Positions 1 to 19,764 of a stretch of DNA of 64,000 nucleotides are shown piece after piece (within the stretch, counting starts at the first letter, position 1; the number at the start of each line of letters is the position of its first letter). Made by a program: the position numbers and the translations under genes. The notes under the pieces were generated by a model that had not been told where the DNA came from, ran no database searches, and saw nothing but the letters and a program-made list of their open reading frames with translations. This stretch comes from Desulfobacteraceae bacterium (GTDB lineage: Bacteria > Desulfobacterota > Desulfobacteria > Desulfobacterales > Desulfosarcinaceae), in contig JABDIN010000065.1 of the NCBI GenBank assembly GCA_013003715.1, positions 1 through 64,000 of the forward strand, in the 5' to 3' direction.

Positions 1-1614
1 AGCATGCACGCCATATTCGATCAACAGGGGAATGTGATCTATTTAGTGCCGGAGGGGCGCGATGTTACGGATCGCAAAAAACAGGAAGAGTTGCTCCGTC
101 GCAGTCAAAAGATGGATGCGCTGGGAAAACTTACCGGTGGTATTGCCCATGATTATAACAATATGCTTTGTATTATCAGGGGCTACACAGAATTACTCAG
201 TGAGAATTTAGTGGCCGATCCCAAATTGTTGAAATATGTCAATGATATACAACATGCGGCAGATCGTGGTATCAAGCTTACACGTAAATTGCTCGCATTT
301 ACACACCAGATAATCCCTGAAGTAACAACTTGTGATATCAACATATTGTTGAATGAACTGCATCTCATGCTGGAGAAAACCCTTACGGTAAAGGTGAACC
401 TCCTATACGAACTTGCGGAAAACCTTTGGCCGGTTAACTTGGATAAAAACGATTTGGAAGATTGTATCATAAATATATGCATCAATGCCGTACATTCGAT
501 GGCCATAGGTGGTCGGTTAACAATTCGTACCACAAATGAGCATCTGGATACGAAAGCCGCTGCACACGTCAATCTGGCACCCGGTGACTATGTGGCCTTG
601 AGTATTGCCGATACAGGCTGTGGAATGGATGATAAAACATTAGAAAAGATATTTGATCCATTTTTTACAACAAAGAAAGACAAGGGTACAGGTTTGGGAA
701 TGAGCCAGGTATTTGGTTTTGTACAAAGTACCAGCGGGAATATTAAGATATATTCCGAACCAGGCCACGGCACTCGAGTTGTCCTCTATTTCCCGCGAAG
801 CCATGAACTGGTAAAAAAAACGCGCGATACAGAACATAGGAGTAGCGGTTTGAGAGGTAGCGAAAGCGTGTTGGTTGTAGATGACGAGGTCGCTATCACC
901 GAGTTTGCATACGAGATTTTGATGGCGCACGGATACAGTGTTTTGACGGCCAATAGCGCTGAGAAGGCGTTGGAAATATTAAAAAGGGAATCAATTGATC
1001 TGGTAATTACTGATGTAATAATGCCCGATATTGATGGATATGAGTTATCCTCAATTATTAGAAAGAAATATCCACAAGTTAAGATTCAAATTGTCAGTGG
1101 TTTTGAAGATGATCGCCACAAAAATAAAGAAGGCCATAAGTTAAGGGCGAATATCGTCTATAAACCCTATACTGCGTATAAGCTGTTAGCCTGCGCTCGT
1201 AATTTGCTGGAAGTGAATGGCATCGCCGATCCGCTTATCGGCCGTATTATCATGATAATGGACGACGAGATGTATACCCGCGAGTTATTTAAAATAAGTG
1301 TTGAAAAAATGGGATGCCAGTCAATAACTGCCCGTAATGACAGTGAAGCCATTGACTGTTTTCGACAAGCAATAGACAGCGGTAATCCAGTTGATATCGT
1401 CGTACTCGATATCGCTATACCCGGAAGCAAAGGGGGGGTTGAGGTTGCCGACAAAATACGGGAATTAAAACCGGACGCTATCATCATCGTCAGCAGTGGT
1501 GACACAGAATGCGAAGAGATGAAGCATTTTCACCGCTTCGGTTTCAACGGAGCACTTGATAAAGCGAGTGACTTCGTAGCAATGGAGAAACTTTTCAGGA
1601 AGCTGTTGATTTGA
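1..1614 (+). CDS. Hybrid sensor histidine kinase with two receiver domains (5' truncated by window edge)
   Basis: The frame is open from base 1, and the first residues (IFDQQGNVIYLVPEGRDVTDRKK) look like the tail of a PAS/PAC domain, so the gene begins upstream of the window. It continues into a HisKA H-box (GGIAHDYNNML), an HATPase_c domain with the N box (NICINAVHSM) and G boxes (DTGCGMD, GTGLGMS), then two CheY-like receivers. Receiver 1 has VVDDE and the phosphoacceptor TDVIMPD; receiver 2 has IMDDE and LDIAIPG. Such proteins autophosphorylate and relay to their own receivers in the cytoplasm. No output domain follows the second receiver. The coding sequence is visibly more A+T-rich than later genes, which suggests different ancestry. 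Input signal and partners are unknown. Confidence 0.9.
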   Translation, partial: SMHAIFDQQGNVIYLVPEGRDVTDRKKQEELLRRSQKMDALGKLTGGIAHDYNNMLCIIRGYTELLSENLVADPKLLKYVNDIQHAADRGIKLTRKLLAFTHQIIPEVTTCDINILLNELHLMLEKTLTVKVNLLYELAENLWPVNLDKNDLEDCIINICINAVHSMAIGGRLTIRTTNEHLDTKAAAHVNLAPGDYVALSIADTGCGMDDKTLEKIFDPFFTTKKDKGTGLGMSQVFGFVQSTSGNIKIYSEPGHGTRVVLYFPRSHELVKKTRDTEHRSSGLRGSESVLVVDDEVAITEFAYEILMAHGYSVLTANSAEKALEILKRESIDLVITDVIMPDIDGYELSSIIRKKYPQVKIQIVSGFEDDRHKNKEGHKLRANIVYKPYTAYKLLACARNLLEVNGIADPLIGRIIMIMDDEMYTRELFKISVEKMGCQSITARNDSEAIDCFRQAIDSGNPVDIVVLDIAIPGSKGGVEVADKIRELKPDAIIIVSSGDTECEEMKHFHRFGFNGALDKASDFVAMEKLFRKLLI

Positions 1615-1860
1615 CAAGCAGCTCCTTGGTTTTTCTGAACGATGCTAATCTTTACCAACGATTTCTAAAGCATTCGAACAATGCACAAGCGTGCTGAAAA
1701 ATCACCCAACCCGCCTGCCCTGCGCCTTATATTACCTGAATCTTCAAGAGTATTCATAACCACGAAACACACGAAAAGAAGAACTTAAAAGATTTGGTCG
1801 GCTACACCGAAGAAGAGAATATGCTCGGATATTAACCCGGCGATTGAATATATCACGTTT

Positions 1861-1923
1861 GTCATTCCAGCGAACGTCGGCATTCGGCATCGATTCTGGA
1901 TGCCGGATAAAGTCCGGCATGAC
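1861..1923. repeat. Short palindromic intergenic repeat (REP-like)
   Basis: The sequence starts gtcattccagcg and ends ggcatgacg, so its outer ends (gtcat/atgac) are inverted. Inside is a perfect hairpin: atgccgga (1900-1907), loop taaag, tccggcat (1913-1920). This looks like the dispersed palindromic repeats common between genes of deltaproteobacteria. It abuts the 89-bp tandem array. Between the kinase stop and this element (1615-1860) I see only A+T-rich non-coding sequence. Confidence 0.55.
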
Positions 1924-1932
1924 GAGGTGAAA

Positions 1933-2241
1933 CGTTTATTCTTCTATATTGTAAGTAGGCATCCCGGATGGCTAAAGGTGAGACGGATATTTGGGGCAGT
2001 TGTAGGGTGTTTACTTTTGAACGTTTATTCTTCGGTATTGTAGATAGGCATCCCGGATGGCTCGAGGTGAGACGTATATTTGGGTTGATAGGAATGGACT
2101 TACTTTTCAACGTTTATTCTTCTATATTGTAAGTAGGCATCCCGGATGGCTCAAGGTGAAACGTATTTTTTGGGTAGTTGTAAGGTGGTTATTTTTCAAC
2201 GTTTATTCTTCTATATTGTAAGTAGGCATCCCGGATGGCTT
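1933..2241. repeat. Tandem array, 89-bp period, four copies of the mlaA tail-coding segment
   Basis: A conserved 41-bp segment (cgtttattcttc ... cccggatggct) starts at 1933, 2022, 2111 and 2200, giving an exact 89-bp period. The fourth copy is the real 3' end of mlaA; the other three lie beyond its stop codon. On the minus strand each copy reads AIRDAYLQYRRINV. The copies at 2111 and 2022 even continue V-E-K-stop and V-Q-K-stop like the gene. The 48-bp intervals between copies are related but more degenerate. The copy at 2022 differs from the others at four bases inside the 41-mer, and all four are synonymous in the mlaA frame. No transposase or CRISPR-like spacer variation is seen. Confidence 0.9.
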
Positions 2242-3124
2242 CGTAGGGGTCGATGGCGGCGGCCTTGAGTGATTCGTAGTCCCCCAGTCTGAAGGAAAGT
2301 CCGTTGATTCGCTCGTATGCGCTGAGGCCGTAGGATACCTCCGAGGGGTTTACGTAGGATACGGGGTGCATGAACCGGTCACCGATCATGCCGACGGTGT
2401 CCCGCAGGGTTGACGGGCCGAGAACAGGCCAGATGATGAACACCCCTTCACCGACACCCCAGCTGCCGAAGGTTTGTCCCAGATCCTCATTGCTGGGTGA
2501 TAGTTCGGGGAACTCTTTGGCGGGGTTGCCAAATCCGAGCACACCGACGGTGCTGTTCATGAAGAAGCGCACGAATTCGGCGTCGGCCGCTTCGCCCTTG
2601 CCCTGCAGGAGGCAATTGACAAAACGCAATGGTCCGGTGAGGTTTGTGAAAAAATTACTCACCCCGATGCGGATTTTCGATGGAAAGAGGGCGCGGTAGG
2701 CATCGGCCACCGGGCTTAGGATGCCTTCATACAAAAAATCATTCACATGATACATGGCCCGATTGAATCCGGACAGGGGGTCGGAGGTGGCGGTGAATTG
2801 CATATCATCTGTATCATCGAGCCAGTCCGGTTCATCTTCGTCCAACCAGTCCGGTTCATCCTCGTCCAGCCAGTCCGGGTTTTCGGTGGCATCCCCATCA
2901 TCCGCTGCCAAAGCGATATCGCCGGTGCCGGCTGCGTCGGTATCCTCCCCATCGGTGACCGGGGCGTTGTTCGGGTCCTCTGGAGAACCCGGTGCTGCGA
3001 CTGTTGATGTCATGTCGGGTTGTCGGGGGTTGCTCTGCTGGTGAGCGCACCCGGAAAAAACCAGACCTGCAGCAGCGGTGAGGAAAATCAATACGGCAAT
3101 CGCTGGGGTGTTGACTCTAATCAT
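2189..3124 (-). CDS. mlaA: MlaA/VacJ-family outer-membrane lipoprotein
   Basis: MlaA is the outer-membrane component of the Mla system, which moves mislocalised phospholipids between the outer membrane and the inner-membrane MCE complex. The 311-residue protein has a lipoprotein signal (LVFSGC, Cys26). A low-complexity acidic linker holds three consecutive PDWLDEDE-type units (about residues 83-104). The MlaA domain (from DPLSGFNRAMYHVND) follows, with the family features GPLRFVNCLLQG and FGNPAKEFP, and ends in the conserved RDAYLQYRR tail. It is the last gene of the mlaE-F-D-C-A operon, 37 bp after mlaC. Its final 41 bp are repeated downstream in the 89-bp tandem array. The acidic repeat linker is not a usual part of MlaA. 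Confidence 0.93.
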   Translation of the reverse strand: MIRVNTPAIAVLIFLTAAAGLVFSGCAHQQSNPRQPDMTSTVAAPGSPEDPNNAPVTDGEDTDAAGTGDIALAADDGDATENPDWLDEDEPDWLDEDEPDWLDDTDDMQFTATSDPLSGFNRAMYHVNDFLYEGILSPVADAYRALFPSKIRIGVSNFFTNLTGPLRFVNCLLQGKGEAADAEFVRFFMNSTVGVLGFGNPAKEFPELSPSNEDLGQTFGSWGVGEGVFIIWPVLGPSTLRDTVGMIGDRFMHPVSYVNPSEVSYGLSAYERINGLSFRLGDYESLKAAAIDPYEAIRDAYLQYRRINVEK

Positions 3125-3161
3125 GTGCCAAAATCCGTAAATAGAATGACCGGGTTTCAGG

Positions 3162-3767
3162 TTAGTCCTGGTTTTTCAGTTTTTCACTGAGCTTTTCAAT
3201 GAGTTGGGCGGGCTTCTCTTTTTGGAGGATTTTTTCGAATTGGCTGCGGTAATTTTTTACCAGACTAACCCCTTCCACACTTACATCATAAACCTTCCAT
3301 TGGTCATTGGATTTAATCAGTTTGTAATCCACCGGTATTTCCAATGTTTCACGCACGATCTGGGTTTTGACCAGGGCATATTTTTCTTTGGCAATCTCCT
3401 GGCTGACAAAAACAATTTTTTCATTGTGGAATTCGCCCTGGATTTTATCCATATAGGTGTTGCCCAGAAAACGTGAAAACACCCGCGTAAATTCCGTCTT
3501 TTCGGCCGGGCTGAAACTTCGCCAGTTTCTGGCCAGGGTGCGCTTGCTCATTTCTTCAAAGTCGAAGATGGTCCGGACGGTTTCCCAGATTTTATCGCGC
3601 TGGGCTTCGACCAGGTCCGGCTCTTTGTAGACCGGGTCGTTCAGAATGGTGATCACATCGTTGATCGGGCCTTTTATGGCCTCCATCGGCTCTGCCATTA
3701 TCGCCGATGCCGTTGATGCGAAGAGCAGGCACACCAGTAAGATTGTCAACATCGTATACATTTTCAA
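3162..3767 (-). CDS. mlaC: MlaC periplasmic phospholipid-binding protein
   Basis: MlaC shuttles a phospholipid across the periplasm between MlaA and the MlaFED complex. The 201-residue protein has a signal peptide (MKMYTMLTILLVCLLFASTASAIMA). It has the features of the Tgt2/MlaC family: FDFEEMSKRTLARNWRSFSP, followed by FTRVFSRFLGNTYMDKI, and the C-terminal YDVSVEGVSLVKNYRSQF segment. Length fits the family. It lies between mlaD (92-bp gap) and mlaA on the same strand, so it is very probably co-transcribed. The start is the Met beginning the signal peptide. Confidence 0.93.
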   Translation of the reverse strand: MKMYTMLTILLVCLLFASTASAIMAEPMEAIKGPINDVITILNDPVYKEPDLVEAQRDKIWETVRTIFDFEEMSKRTLARNWRSFSPAEKTEFTRVFSRFLGNTYMDKIQGEFHNEKIVFVSQEIAKEKYALVKTQIVRETLEIPVDYKLIKSNDQWKVYDVSVEGVSLVKNYRSQFEKILQKEKPAQLIEKLSEKLKNQD

Positions 3768-3859
3768 TGGGATATCCTTTCAAAGTGTTTTTGTATATCG
3801 GGTCTAAAAGTGCAAATCATCACTGATACATATATATGCGTTATTTGTCACAGGGCTTA

Positions 3860-4309
3860 TTATTCCACACCCCCGAATACATATTTCCCAACGAGTTCCT
3901 CGATGTCCAGTGATGATTCCGTTTCAAAGATCTCCCCGCCAGGTGGAATGATGTCATCGGACCCACCCGGAGACAGCTTAATAAACTTATCGCCAATCAG
4001 GCCCGCAGTCTTAACCGATGCAATGACATCTTCGCTCAATTCCACGCCATTTTGTATTTTTAACAATACCTTAGCCATGAATTTTTCTTTGTCCAGAATG
4101 ATGGAATCGACCTGGCCGACCTCTACACCGGCGACTTCGACCGAGGCGCCGGGTTTCAAACCGGACACGGAATAGAACTTGGCGACGACCTTGTAATGAT
4201 CATCCCCTAACAGCTCGATTTTACCCAGCTTGATGGTTAAATAACCGACGCAGATCAAACCAATCAGCATGAACAAGCCCACTGCGGCTTCCAAGGTCAC
4301 ACGCTTCAT
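3860..4309 (-). CDS. mlaD: MlaD-type MCE-domain protein
   Basis: This is the membrane-anchored MCE subunit that forms a lipid-binding ring on the periplasmic side of the MlaFE transporter. It has 149 residues: an N-terminal transmembrane helix (AAVGLFMLIGLICVGYLTIKLG), then one MCE domain with the typical FYSVSGLKPGASVEVAGVEVG motif and ...TAGLIGDKFIKLSPGG. A clear ribosome-binding site (ggagg) lies a few bases before the ATG. It is downstream of mlaF (168-bp gap) and upstream of mlaC. Length is typical of single-MCE MlaD proteins. Confidence 0.94.
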   Translation of the reverse strand: MKRVTLEAAVGLFMLIGLICVGYLTIKLGKIELLGDDHYKVVAKFYSVSGLKPGASVEVAGVEVGQVDSIILDKEKFMAKVLLKIQNGVELSEDVIASVKTAGLIGDKFIKLSPGGSDDIIPPGGEIFETESSLDIEELVGKYVFGGVE

Positions 4310-4477
4310 ATATCCTCCGTATTGCTCCGGCGGTTAGATACACAACAACCGCATTATTGATTTGGTACTTTAGACAGTGGTCGCACTCATGGGCGGTTCC
4401 GGCACAAACCGCCGGAAAGCGCTGTACTATTTCAGTATGTGTCCGATTACCTATTCGATCGCCTGGTTAATATTGTG

Positions 4478-5689
4478 TCAACAGACGCGAAATTCGTAGA
4501 ACGAGTTATTGCCGGCGTCTGCCTGTTCGATCAGTTCTTCGAGTTCGCTGTTTTCAGCCGCCACGGAAAATCCGGCGCTGATGGAGATACATGTGTCCTT
4601 GGTCGGTTTGATATGCATGGTGGGATCTCTTTCCATCTCCCGGGCCAGTTCGGTGCAGAACATTCTTGCCCTGGAAATTTCGCCGGCGCTCAACAACACC
4701 ATGATTTTGTTCAAACCATATCTGGAGCATGTATCGGTAATACCTAAACAATTTTGCACATGTCCGGCCAAACGTTTCAGAATCGTCTGTCCGGCTACAT
4801 GACCTTCGTATTCGGTCAGTACTTCCATGTTGTTTACGATCAGGAGTACAAGGGAAAATTTGATGTGATGGCGCTGAAACTGCGCCATGTCCCGGCGGAA
4901 CTGGGCAACACCCTGGGGTTGGGGCGGCAAACCGGTAAGTGCGTCGTGCCGGCTCTCCAAACCATTGATGAACTGCAGGATGACCGGATCCGTGCTTTTC
5001 TGGATCTCTTCGGATGTGCCTTGGAAAATTATTCGTCCCTCATCGAGCATGGCCACGTGCTGGGCGATATAAAATACATCGGGAATTTCATGGCTGACCA
5101 CAACTCCGGTGAAACCGAACCGCTGCTGGTAATCGGAAATCATGCTGTGTACCGTGTTTTTCCGGATGGGATCCAGGCCTGTGGTGGGCTCGTCGAACAA
5201 TACGATTTCCGGATCGGTCACCAGCGCCCTGGCCAGTGCCACCCGTTTTTTCATCCCGCCGGATAACTGGGATGGATACTTGTCCTCGATGCCGACCAGA
5301 TCGAGCGGTTTCAATTTTGCGTTCACTTTTTCCCGGATTTCGCTCGGGTGATAGGTGGTCCTCTCTTTCAGTGGCAGTGCGATGTTGTCGTAAATGGTCA
5401 TGGAATCGAACAATGCATTGCCCTGAAACATGTAGCTGAAACGTGTCTTCAGTTTGCGCCGTTCCGGTTTGGTCATATCGTTCAACGCCGTTCCCTGGAA
5501 GTAGATGTCTCCGTCGTCCGGGTCCAGCAGGCCGATCATATGCTTGAGAAGAACACTCTTGCCCATGCCGCTCTTGCCGATTACCGTGGTGATCTCGCCC
5601 TTGTTGATATGCAGATCAACACCGTTGAGCACGATGTTGGCACCGAACGATTTGGTCACTTTTTTTAATTCTATTAAGGGTGTGTCCAT
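4478..5689 (-). CDS. mlaF: MlaF-type ABC ATPase fused to a degenerate GGDEF-like domain
   Basis: Residues 1-245 are a complete MlaF-class ATPase: Walker A GKSGMGKS (38-45), signature LSGGMKKR (142-149), Walker B IVLFDEP (162-168) and H-loop His200. It would power phospholipid transport by MlaE. Typical MlaF ends near residue 260, but this protein runs to 403. The extra part starts RHDALTGLP and continues [23 protein letters not shown]...ILKRLAGHV...[13 protein letters not shown], which follows the GGDEF fold signature. The catalytic GGDEF motif is replaced by GLNKI (about 325-329), so cyclase activity is not expected. No frameshift is needed: the fusion is one open frame. It is 11 bp after mlaE. 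The extra domain could act as a regulatory or dimerisation module; that is inference. Confidence 0.92.
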
Positions 5690-5700
5690 AATTATTCTAA

Positions 5701-6504
5701 TCAGAGCAGTAAAGAGGTCAGAACATAATCAAAGACCAACACGGCCACACAAGACAATACAACGGCTGATGTTGTGGAGAAGCTGACACCTTTAGCCCCG
5801 AAGCCTTCAGCTCTTAGATGAGTATAGTAGCCTTTGTAACAACAAATGGCGGCCACCAGCGCCGCGAAGCAAATGGATTTCAGAAATCCGCCGGTAATAT
5901 CGTGCATGATCACACTCGACTCGACCTTTGAAAAATAAACCCCTTTTCCGATCCCCAGCAATAGCGAACCGGTGAGGTATCCGCCGATAATCCCGACGGT
6001 ATCAAAGAGGGCGGTCAACAAGGGGAAGCTGATAAGTGCTGCGGCCAGGCGTGGACTGATGAGATAGCGGATGGGATTGATATCCATGGTTTCAAGAGCA
6101 TCGATCTGTTCTGAGATGCGCATGATACCGATTTCGGCCGCAATTGCGGAACCGGCCCGGCCGATGATCATGATCGCACTGAGTACCGGTCCCATTTCCC
6201 GGATAAGCGACAAGGCCACAGCAGCCCCAAGTAATCCTTCGGAACCGAATTTGACCAGTGTGTAATACCCCTGGAGCCCCAGCACCATCCCGGTAAATGC
6301 GCCCGTCAGGCAGATGACGAACACTGATTTCATACCTATAAAATAGATTTGCTCGATGATTTTGCCGGGCTGAAGGGGAATGCTGAACATATGCACGAAC
6401 GCGTGGACGAAAAAAAGGGTGATTCGCCCCAGATCCTGGAGAACGGACAGGCCCTTTCTACCCAGCTCCTCAAGAGGATTCTTGATCACGGAATTCATAT
6501 CCAT
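5701..6504 (-). CDS. mlaE: MlaE-type ABC transporter permease
   Basis: This inner-membrane permease of the Mla phospholipid transporter pairs with MlaF and carries MlaD. The 267-residue protein shows the MlaE family signature ([20 protein letters not shown]...[26 protein letters not shown]...EQIDALE) and about five or six hydrophobic segments. It is the first gene of the operon. A sigma-70-type promoter is visible upstream (6548-6576). No MlaB (STAS) gene is seen in the cluster, unlike the enterobacterial arrangement. Confidence 0.94.
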
Positions 6505-6547
6505 CGCCGATTATCCAATGCAAATTTTAGTGGGAAATTTAAGCTCC

Positions 6548-6576
6548 AAAATATAGATAAAAACAGATCATGTCAA
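6548..6576 (-). promoter_or_regulatory. Sigma-70-type promoter of the mla operon
   Basis: On the minus strand TTGACA (6576-6571), a 17-bp spacer and TATTTT (6553-6548) precede the mlaE start codon by about 44 bases. The -35 is a perfect consensus and the -10 matches 4 of 6. No operator-like repeat was seen here. Confidence 0.55.
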
Positions 6577-6674
6577 GCCTAAGCACATCTGGCGGGCACT
6601 ATTTTTTCGGTTATTTTCAATTTGTTACAATTTGTATCGCCAGCATCCATCACTGATAAAACTCTTTTTCCCGC

Positions 6675-7421
6675 TTATTCGGTGAGGGTGAATTTCCACG
6701 CACAATACCAGGCGTCGGGATGCGCATCCGGCGGACAACCCACACACTCGGTGTGAAGCCGTGGGTCAATGGTCCGGGCAAATGTCGGATATTCGACCAT
6801 GCCGGCGGATTTGCACGGGTAGTCCGGGAGGCCCTTTCTTTTCCGGGCCACCTGCACCCGGCACTGGTTCATCTGGAAAATAAAACTCTTTTCGTCAATA
6901 TCCTCAATGGATTGTTCGTTTATTTGTGAGTACAACCTGAACCCAAGCGCTTTTTTCATGGCCGTGATACCGCCGTTCGCCGGCAACTCCAGTAAATTTT
7001 TGATCCGGGCGGCTTCAAATGGTGAAAACCGTGTCCAGCAGGTATCATTGCATCTTTTCGCATCGAACATGCCGAATTTTCGTTCCACCGCTTGAAACCA
7101 GATACCGTCGTTGGCTACCCAATTAATGGCGATGGCTTTGAGCACTTCACGTTTTGTCCCGGCGGGCAGGGCGGATACGGCTTCAGGAATACCGTCTTTT
7201 ACCTCGAATCCCAGCAAGGTGCCGAGCCGTGTCATCTGGTTTTTTAAACTCGCGTTCCAGACCGTGTTTTCCAGGTCTAAAGCAGTCTCCAATCCCAATT
7301 GGTGTTCGACCTCGGCAAACCATTGACCATAGTGAACGATAATTCTACGGAATCCATCCATGATAAGTTCCGTGAGTTCATGATCCTCAATTTTGTCGGG
7401 CAGCAAGATTTTTTCCGCCAT
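6675..7421 (-). CDS. Cys-rich cytosolic protein of unknown function (DUF6125-like)
   Basis: The protein has 248 residues, no signal peptide and no membrane helix. I place the start at MAEKILLPDK because gaggaggtatag lies just before it; a Met nine codons upstream has no such site. The C-terminal part holds spaced cysteines and aromatic residues: NQCRVQVARKRKG, DYPCKSAG, then TECVGCPPDA and WYCAWKFTL. These look like a conserved ligand-binding or redox region. It resembles a family of deltaproteobacterial cytosolic proteins I recall as DUF6125, but I cannot confirm that without a search. It stands alone on the minus strand, upstream of mlaE (about 170 bp). Function is unknown. Confidence 0.75.
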   Translation of the reverse strand: MAEKILLPDKIEDHELTELIMDGFRRIIVHYGQWFAEVEHQLGLETALDLENTVWNASLKNQMTRLGTLLGFEVKDGIPEAVSALPAGTKREVLKAIAINWVANDGIWFQAVERKFGMFDAKRCNDTCWTRFSPFEAARIKNLLELPANGGITAMKKALGFRLYSQINEQSIEDIDEKSFIFQMNQCRVQVARKRKGLPDYPCKSAGMVEYPTFARTIDPRLHTECVGCPPDAHPDAWYCAWKFTLTE

Positions 7422-7692
7422 ACCTATACCTCCTCTCGACACATTCATTCACATTATACCCCACCCTGATCTGTTCATAACGTATTTTGCAGAGTGTGGC
7501 GAGTGCGAATTCAGGGGAGCCCCTTTTCTGTTTTTTAGCCAACGGCGCCCAACACCTTGCAAAATGCACAAGTGTACTGAAAAAACACCAGGCCCGCACT
7601 CTATACCGTCCAGTGAAAAACGTTCGGGCCTTTTCTCCGGCTGGGTCAAGTGGCCGGGTGTCACCGAAAGTCACATATGCGGGGTAAAGCGG

Positions 7693-7721
7693 TTGACAAA
7701 ATTAAATTGAAAATCTAATCA
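7693..7721 (+). promoter_or_regulatory. Candidate promoter and operator of the GntR regulator
   Basis: TTGACA (7693-7698), a 17-bp spacer and TAATCA (7716-7721) precede the GntR gene by about 60 bases. The 8-mer AATCTAAT (7712-7719) overlaps the -10 and recurs inverted as ATTAGATT (8693-8700) just before the neighbouring oxidoreductase gene. That makes it a candidate shared operator. The rest of the 7422-7783 gap shows nothing I can support. Confidence 0.35.
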
Positions 7722-7783
7722 GATAGAGAATCAGGTATTGCCGGGAACCCAAATTCTGTCGGAAAACCCCCATAAAGGCCGCC

Positions 7784-8485
7784 ATGACGAAAAAAACTGC
7801 AAATACACGGAAAAAAAACGGTGCCGGGCATACCCATGCTGCTTATATGGGTATCCGTAAAATGTTGTTTCACAATGAAATCGCACCGGGTCAGAAAATT
7901 TCCTATCGTGACCTGGCGGATCGCTTGGGCATGAGCCAGACACCCATAATTCAAGCGTTGAAATGGCTGGAATTTCAACAGCTGGTGTGCCATGTGCCGA
8001 ACCGTGGCTACTATACCGCTCAGATCAGCCTGAGGGAGGTTGAAGAAATATATGATTTCCGGGAGATGATCGAGTTGTCGTTGTTGATGAAAACCATGAA
8101 CGGTCTCAATGATGCCGCTATCTCCAAACTCGAATGCGCGCTGAACGCGCATATTGCCGCCACCAGGGAAGTTTATTTATACGATCGTCTTGTGAAGGAT
8201 ATGGAATTCCACCTGACACTGGCTTCCCTGGCCGGTTGCCGGGTCCAGGAAAAGGCGCTGCAAAATCTTTTCGATCTCCTCTATCTCAAATACGGCGGGA
8301 GTATTTTGTTTTCGACCTCCATGGAACTGGCCGCTTCAAATCACCGTGCCTTGTTTGAACATATCCGCTCAAAATCATCAGAAAAAGCGGGGATGATACT
8401 CGCCGGCCATATCCATGAGGTGAAAAAGCATGTGTTAAAGGGGTTGACCCGAAATATCGAAGAAAAAAAACTGTCCACCGTCTGA
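7784..8485 (+). CDS. GntR-family transcriptional regulator (FCD type)
   Basis: This is a DNA-binding regulator of 233 residues. The N-terminal winged helix-turn-helix contains the GntR signature (APGQKISYRDLADRLGMSQTPIIQALKWLEFQQLVCHVPNRGYYTAQIS). It is followed by an all-helical FCD effector domain (EVEEIYDFREMIELSLLM ... DRLVKDMEFHLTLASLAGC ... NHRALFEHIRS). Such proteins usually repress neighbouring catabolic genes and are released by an organic acid. The 2-oxoacid oxidoreductase genes start 230 bp downstream on the same strand, so these are the likely target. The effector is unknown; a 2-oxo acid or its precursor is a guess. Confidence 0.9.
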   Translation: MTKKTANTRKKNGAGHTHAAYMGIRKMLFHNEIAPGQKISYRDLADRLGMSQTPIIQALKWLEFQQLVCHVPNRGYYTAQISLREVEEIYDFREMIELSLLMKTMNGLNDAAISKLECALNAHIAATREVYLYDRLVKDMEFHLTLASLAGCRVQEKALQNLFDLLYLKYGGSILFSTSMELAASNHRALFEHIRSKSSEKAGMILAGHIHEVKKHVLKGLTRNIEEKKLSTV

Positions 8486-18078: not shown

Positions 18079-19207
18079 TACCCTGTTGCTGGTGGACGAT
18101 GAGTCGGGAATTCGAAAGGTGCTGTCAATTTCCCTTCGGGATCTGGGCTATGAGGTGATCACTGCCCGAAGCGGCCGTGAAGCGCTCCGTCTGTTTGAAG
18201 AGAAGAGAACGGATATCGTGCTTACCGATATAAAGATGCCGGAGTTCGACGGCATAGAGTTGTTGAAAAAAATAAAAAAGATACATCCGGACACGGAAGT
18301 CATCATGCTCACCGGCCATGGTGAAATGGATTTGGCCGTTCAGAGTCTTAAACATCAGGCCACGGATTTCATCACCAAGCCGATTCACGATGAGGCGCTG
18401 GAAATTGCACTGGAACGGGCAAAGGAACGCATTCGGCTCAAGCAGCAGTTGAAGGACTATACTGAGAATCTGGAAGCCCTGGTGGCCGAAAAAACCGAAA
18501 AACTCATCGAAGCGGAAACCCTGGCTGCTGTTGGGGAGACTGTGGCCGGACTCTCCCATGCCATCAAGAATATTGCGGGCGGGCTTTCCGGCGGCGCGTT
18601 CGTGCTTGAGAAAGGCATTGATCTGGATGATAAGGAATATTTACAGCAGGGATGGGAGATGATTCGCAATAATGTGGACCGGATTACCCATCTGTCCATG
18701 GACTTGTTGAATTTCGCCAAGCCCAATCCACTCTCCTTCAAGCCCGGTGATCCGAATACGCCGGCAAGGGATGTGCTCACCCTCATGGCACCGGCCGCTA
18801 AAAAAGCCGGTATCCGCCTGTCTGCCAAATTGGCCTCCGACCTGTCCGATGTGCACTTTGACGCTGAGAATATTTACCGGAGCCTGTTGAATCTGGTGGC
18901 CAACGCGGTGGATGCATGCACGGCTCCGGAATCGATCGAAACCTCAAAGGAGGTCCGCATTGAAACCCGCCGTGTACAGGGGTGGGGTGTGGAATACCTT
19001 GTGGCGGATAATGGATGCGGGATCGGAGATGTGCAGCGGGAGAAGATTTTTCAACGCTTTTTCACCACCAAGGGCAGCAGGGGCACCGGTATCGGCCTGA
19101 TGCTTACGCGGCGGATTGTCGATCAACACAAGGGCCGGATCCGGTTTGAATCTGAGCCCGGCACCGGTACCCGGTTTTTTATCAGGTTGCCCGTGAACCC
19201 GGCATAA
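18071..19207 (+). CDS. REC-histidine kinase (receiver at N terminus)
   Basis: The protein has 378 residues, starting at the ATG that overlaps the heme kinase stop by 8 bp. The receiver occupies about 1-120 (VDDES, phosphoacceptor Asp53 in LTDIKMP, Lys in ITKP). A coiled coil (DYTENLEALVAEKTEKLIEAE) leads to the H-box AGLSHAIKN (His163), then a dimerisation helix pair and HATPase_c (NLVANAVDAC, DNGCGIG, GTGIGLMLTRR). It has no membrane segment. The overlap suggests the heme kinase phosphorylates this receiver, which in turn controls its kinase domain, a phosphorelay without a visible DNA-binding output. It is closely related to the longer protein at 43178-45163. Confidence 0.92.
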   Translation: MNNTLLLVDDESGIRKVLSISLRDLGYEVITARSGREALRLFEEKRTDIVLTDIKMPEFDGIELLKKIKKIHPDTEVIMLTGHGEMDLAVQSLKHQATDFITKPIHDEALEIALERAKERIRLKQQLKDYTENLEALVAEKTEKLIEAETLAAVGETVAGLSHAIKNIAGGLSGGAFVLEKGIDLDDKEYLQQGWEMIRNNVDRITHLSMDLLNFAKPNPLSFKPGDPNTPARDVLTLMAPAAKKAGIRLSAKLASDLSDVHFDAENIYRSLLNLVANAVDACTAPESIETSKEVRIETRRVQGWGVEYLVADNGCGIGDVQREKIFQRFFTTKGSRGTGIGLMLTRRIVDQHKGRIRFESEPGTGTRFFIRLPVNPA

Positions 19208-19389
19208 TGACCATTGGTTTAAAAGGCCGAAAACCCGCGTTCGACGGCCTTGGGGAGCTTTTGCCGGTCATTCTTTGAACCGCCATTGCCAGCGCATTCC
19301 CCTGGCTTGCCACGGGGTGAGCGGGTGCAACCCGGATCAGAAGGATTACCATGTGGTCGGTGTTCCCCCGCAGCTCGCTGGCAGGCGCT

Positions 19390-19764
19390 TCAATTTTCCC
19401 CCAGGGCTTTTCGAATAGATGCCAGGAGTTCATCATTGTCCGCCGGTTTTTGAAAAAAGGCGAATGCGCCGGCTTTAAGCGACCGTTCTTTGTTCGCCTC
19501 GGGGTCCCGGGCGGTGAGAATGATCACCGGGATGTCGGCCACCTCGATGAAGTCTTTCATGCGATCCATGACGAGGAAGCCATCGCCCAGGGGCAGACCG
19601 ATATCGAGGATTATGAGATCGGGTGAATCGTTCCTGGCCGCACGGGTGGCCTCATAGCCGTCGGCGGCAAATGTCGTATCATAATTGTTAGCCTTTAACC
19701 TGAGATCCAGTGCCTTTAGTAAATCCTTATCATCGTCGACGATGAGAATTCTTTTTTTACTCAT
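19390..19764 (-). CDS. Single-domain response regulator (CheY-like)
   Basis: A 124-residue stand-alone receiver: VDDDK acidic pocket, phosphoacceptor in ILDIGLPLGDG, conserved Thr in ILTA and Lys in QKPAD. No output domain. Its start lies inside the end of the upstream kinase gene (8-bp overlap), with aaaggag as ribosome site. So it is translationally coupled to that kinase and probably receives phosphate from it. Confidence 0.93.
   Translation of the reverse strand: MSKKRILIVDDDKDLLKALDLRLKANNYDTTFAADGYEATRAARNDSPDLIILDIGLPLGDGFLVMDRMKDFIEVADIPVIILTARDPEANKERSLKAGAFAFFQKPADNDELLASIRKALGEN

Follow-up and report, generated by a model that had tools for sequence, protein, structure and literature searches.

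A tandem array made of the end of the mlaA gene in a Desulfobacteraceae genome

The window analysed here is a contiguous stretch of 64,000 nucleotides in which an mla operon runs along the minus strand in the order MlaE, MlaF, MlaD, MlaC, MlaA. The Pfam MlaA match of the last gene product extends to residue 306 of 311, and therefore most of the mlaA tail is native MlaA. A kinase-like ORF on the plus strand, whose function was assigned by eye from its translation, ends at 1614 and is convergent with mlaA. The features of this region are as follows.

1855-1931, no strand: dispersed palindromic repeat, abutting the array and truncated on that side (by eye)
1933-1973, minus strand: fourth core, same as the gene core; its own interval is almost wholly missing
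1974-2021, minus strand: interval 3, differing from interval 1 at 10 of 48 positions
2022-2062, minus strand: third core, differing from the gene core at four synonymous sites; may be an older allele
2063-2110, minus strand: interval 2, differing from interval 1 at 14 of 48 positions
2111-2151, minus strand: second core, same as the gene core; a stop codon stands in frame directly before AIRD
2152-2199, minus strand: interval 1, holding the last mlaA codons, the stop and the 3' flank; 13 C, 3 G
2200-2240, minus strand: core in mlaA, 41 bp, AIRDAYLQYRRIN plus 2 bases
2189-3124, minus strand: mlaA, 311 aa, last gene of the mla operon (Pfam MlaA, 6.1e-67)

Tandem Repeats Finder delimits the array at 1931-2240, with a period of 89, 3.5 copies, 0% indels and a score of 452. 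The 41-bp core that forms the end of mlaA is found again at 2111, 2022 and 1933, in steps of exactly 89 bp. This confirms the first-pass annotation, according to which the last 41 bp of the gene recur three more times at an exact 89-bp period (starts 1933, 2022, 2111 and 2200). A 24-base word of the core, searched with up to 3 mismatches, occurs four times in the window, always inside the array, for a chance expectation of 0.00. The same annotation had described the 48-bp intervals as more divergent than the cores. The greater divergence stands, and the number of intervals has to be set at three, not four, because only about 10 interval-like bases follow the 1933 core before the dispersed repeat begins (by eye). 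The interval once present there may have been lost through a deletion between ACGTT words, as judged by eye.

The adjoining dispersed repeat is found at eight places of the genome at E <= 1.3e-16, including 1855-1931, and at two weaker ones. By eye, the other genomic copies continue past this edge, apparently into the other arm of a longer palindrome; at this locus the repeat stops at the array. A single contig (C101) of the same genome carries three copies in about 0.84 kb.

All three copies outside the gene encode the same 14 residues. After these, the 2111 copy ends like the gene with VEK-stop, and the 2022 copy ends with VQK-stop, an E-to-Q change; both translations agree with those given previously. 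The 1933 copy has neither of these ends and continues as VSPRH... into the dispersed repeat. On the other side of the core, the in-frame stop codon of the 2111 copy immediately precedes AIRD. In the 2022 copy, 15 open codons separate a stop from AIRD; ATG, GTG and TTG occur neither in these codons nor in the core. The 1933 copy lies within an 82-residue frame that has a TTG start and a different end. Judging from these frames, none of the copies has a good or convincing route to the translation of an MlaA tail, and they appear untranslated.

All four core differences sit in the 2022 copy, which reads TAT CTA ... TAC CGA where the gene reads TAC TTA ... TAT AGA (TAC>TAT, TTA>CTA, TAT>TAC and AGA>CGA). 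The codon comparison agrees with the earlier claim that these differences are synonymous in the mlaA frame (Arg, Tyr, Leu, Tyr); read in any of the five remaining frames, they alter two residues. The all-synonymous pattern holds inside the 41-mer and fails just outside it, where the E-to-Q change is non-synonymous. When three transitions and one transversion were placed at random, all four were synonymous in 0.46% of trials (naive P = 0.0046); two adjacent-pair events were synonymous in 0.02%. The tails of relatives mostly carry the state of the 2022 copy: CGN at the Arg site in 28 of 29, TAT at the first Tyr site in 20 of 29, and CTN at the Leu site in both of the relatives that have Leu (n = 2 sequences only). 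At the second Tyr site there is a slight lean to the gene's state, with TAT in three and TAC in two of the five relatives with Tyr. The 2022 copy thus has the commoner state at three sites out of four, and so it may hold an older mlaA state, or an allele from another strain. The synonymy would then be explained by the history of the gene itself and not by selection on the copy. A difficulty is that an old untranslated fossil should meanwhile have drifted on its own.

Across the three units, 4 of 41 columns are variable in the core versus 19 of 48 in the intervals (Fisher P = 0.0015). Pairwise, the intervals differ at 14, 10 and 15 of 48 positions, i.e. they are 69-79% identical. In a simulation of drift at the interval rate, which assumes equal rates and equally old units and does not correct for multiple hits, two unchanged free cores together with a third carrying at most 4 changes were obtained in 1 of 100,000 runs. 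Under these assumptions, the similarity of the free cores far exceeds what they would show after drifting independently at the rate of the intervals. The Fisher, synonymy and drift-simulation tests were picked once the pattern was known and are mutually non-independent.

The array has one match in its own genome (115 contigs), and a dispersed family of the array was rejected on this ground. The first-pass annotation had proposed to align the copies to other MlaA 3' ends of the genome; no match to a second mlaA was found there. A DNA search of 60 genomes, its own included, did not find the array in the 59 others. At E <= 0.001 the non-self matches, in five genomes, are all confined to the stretch of the query that codes for MlaA; the weaker matches, with E up to 0.1, span 18-42 bp, and four lie entirely downstream of the gene. 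In a search of 389 genomes, with up to two candidates scored per listed genome, the array was absent from the 388 others (which partly overlap the 59), and the seven other matching genomes match only query positions 252-330, the gene end. Within the genus, the search yielded the window's own genome alone, and the comparison genomes lie outside it. Direct inspection of 31 relative loci, 28 of them usable (L046 and L060 have no MlaA-like tail, and L048 has only 57 nt of flank), gave no gene-end repeat behind mlaA above the best of 50 shuffles. Among further loci, L113 was negative, L114 is the same locus as L039, and L112 and L115 were left out for lack of the tail motif. A mobile origin was rejected: one exact degenerate core pattern had no match in IMG/VR, and blastn at E 0.01 against plasmid and phage records gave none either. 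No report of this array was noticed in the accessible text of the open-licence literature.

Gene-end repeats were also scored in a sample of 724,518 bases, which includes the window and amounts to about 13% of the genome; of the 597 ORFs retained there (100 aa or longer), one was skipped because its flank was lacking. Only mlaA among the 596 ORFs tested has such an array, and a genome-wide habit of gene-end repeats was rejected. A score of at least 20 was reached by mlaA (50) and by two ORFs of L105 (29 and 21) located in apparently repetitive coding sequence (by eye). The other Tandem Repeats Finder rows that touch an ORF 3' end in this sample are two in L077, two in L080 (periods 20-40) and one in L110 (period 200). 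The L110 repeat (19132-19507) is a 200-bp tandem partial duplication with 89% matches that appears, by eye, to comprise a minus-strand gene's 5' end together with the flank upstream of it.

Minisatellites consist of head-to-tail units of about 10-100 bp, as this array does with its period of 89 and 3.5 copies. In bacteria (VNTR; MIRU of mycobacteria) they are imperfect head-to-tail units of tens of bases at the edge of genes, and the array behind mlaA resembles them in this respect. Unlike VNTR and MIRU, it occurs at a single locus, and its unit starts inside the coding end and derives from it. Integrative elements duplicate their attachment sites at gene 3' ends and leave the gene end repeated downstream with synonymous differences, a pattern also seen for mlaA. 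The array does not fit such an origin, as only 48 bp of mutually homologous DNA, with no room for cargo or a recombinase, separate the cores. Nor does it fit a CRISPR array, the intervals being related to one another and not unrelated spacers. The array is real and of a common type, and it stands out in a single statistic.

The explanation that we favour, with a probability of about 0.62, is that of a small, ageing minisatellite which arose by partial duplication of the mlaA end and in which short recombination with the gene keeps the cores similar. Slippage or illegitimate recombination would probably have produced a tandem duplicate of the final 41 bp of mlaA with 48 bp of its 3' flank, and the 89-bp unit would have multiplied to four. 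The last interval would then have been lost beside the truncated dispersed repeat. Selection on MlaA would preserve the core within the gene, short recombination between identical cores would carry the gene's sequence into the free cores, and the intervals would drift meanwhile. The 2022 core would have escaped recent exchange, or would have come from the allele of another strain, and would thus have kept an older synonymous version. The exact 89-bp register without indels argues for tandem duplication. Repeated partial duplication of a gene was one of the two options offered by the first-pass annotation, and it fits best in view of this register, the native MlaA core and the divergence pattern. 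Beyond the anatomy, the single occurrence and the divergence pattern, which are observed, we infer exchange between gene and copies from one sequence, the array being present in one genome. Such exchange is the simplest way to obtain alike cores together with diverging intervals. Gene conversion should be expected to enter the intervals too, and only their high divergence would explain why the tracts end near the core edge. If gene and copies do exchange, the locus would be a compact natural case for how short a shared stretch (about 41-48 bp) stays alike, and the selected mlaA copy could serve as an anchor for such a measurement in bacteria. Without this exchange, the array is an ordinary repeat.

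It is unlikely that the 41-mer is kept by a role at the DNA or RNA level, e.g. as a protein site, a Rho-dependent terminator or a processing site, its coding content being irrelevant. Conservation of cores with no visible translation route would suit such a role, as would the bias of C over G downstream of mlaA, but changes that are all synonymous are not predicted by it. No RNA structure is supported in the array (z = -0.23), no compensatory pairs are found among 6 predicted RNA pairs, and Rfam gives no match up to E = 1 in 1-8000; a structured RNA was rejected on these results. No intrinsic terminator was found behind mlaA, and the one promoter-like match (2154-2126, minus strand) does not exceed what shuffled sequences yield. 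The 200 nt that follow mlaA contain 58 C and 25 G; of the 147 genes whose 3' flanks are free, two show an excess of C this large (33), mlaA being one of them. As set out in the accessible text of PMC6407284, the first step of RhoTermPredict looks for a 78-nt window with more C than G and cytosines every 11-13 nt, ahead of a pause site. With this rule re-coded for the present analysis, the best rut-like 78-nt window has a C/G of 2.5, reached by 11 of the 147 genes, again counting mlaA; these composition tests were picked after the fact. A C/G above 1 is seen in 46% of the 147 controls, and rut-like composition is common. Moreover, the C-rich part of the array is the variable interval and not the core, which speaks against a role of the 41-mer. 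For an ageing minisatellite, a function is unnecessary. At most, its C-rich, G-poor transcript might help Rho-dependent termination ahead of the convergent kinase-like gene, for which the composition is only suggestive.

Pure chance, i.e. a plain tandem duplication with uneven divergence, four lucky synonymous hits and no exchange, appears distinctly improbable. There are only four changes, perhaps two adjacent-pair events, and the sample is small, with tests chosen after the pattern had been seen. Nevertheless, the core versus interval contrast, the synonymy and the single simulated run in 100,000 all speak against it, even as non-independent tests.

The other option of the first-pass annotation, a store of 3' ends, has little to recommend it. 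The free copies would be kept as gene-conversion templates that rewrite the mlaA tail, for variation or repair. Silent cassettes such as pilS of Neisseria and vls of Borrelia are partial, start-less gene copies near the full gene, and the array likewise has partial copies without a start near the full mlaA. The amino acids of the mlaA frame are kept in the copies, with a rightly placed stop in two of them, the cores resemble the gene more than the intervals resemble each other, and the 1933 copy, if used, would yield a different, longer end. Unlike the silent cassettes, two of the three copies specify the same tail as the gene, with zero or one residue changed, and the shared piece is 41 bp. 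We know of no variation of mlaA, a lipid-transport gene. Given these near-identical tails, no second mlaA and no translation route, the store is unsupported; the array is also absent from every relative inspected and without parallel among the sampled ORFs. What survives, by inference, is a weak, non-adaptive form of gene-copy exchange. Slightly less doubtful than the store, and still improbable, is that recombination copies the functional 3' end into the flanking untranslated copies and back, so that the array would record past mlaA alleles and could restore the tail.

An assembly artefact, in which alleles of several strains were woven into one array, is very improbable: the genome is in 115 contigs and one copy resembles a different allele, but the intervals are mutually different, so that the units would be separated by stretches longer than the shared 41-48 bases.

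Two other features of the operon were seen. Within mlaA, three 24-bp repeats (2814-2885) code for an acidic EPDWLDED-like repeat located after the signal sequence and before the MlaA domain. The MlaF-like ATPase (4478-5689, minus strand) carries a GGDEF domain at its C-terminus (Pfam 8.2e-15), whose signature looks degenerate by eye (RYGLNKI). Among the matches listed, this MlaF-GGDEF protein is found near full-length at 54-63% identity in 6 of 39 other genomes and at 42-43% in two; the best listed matches from genomes of the same family end at about residue 244-253, and one weaker match reaches residue 360.
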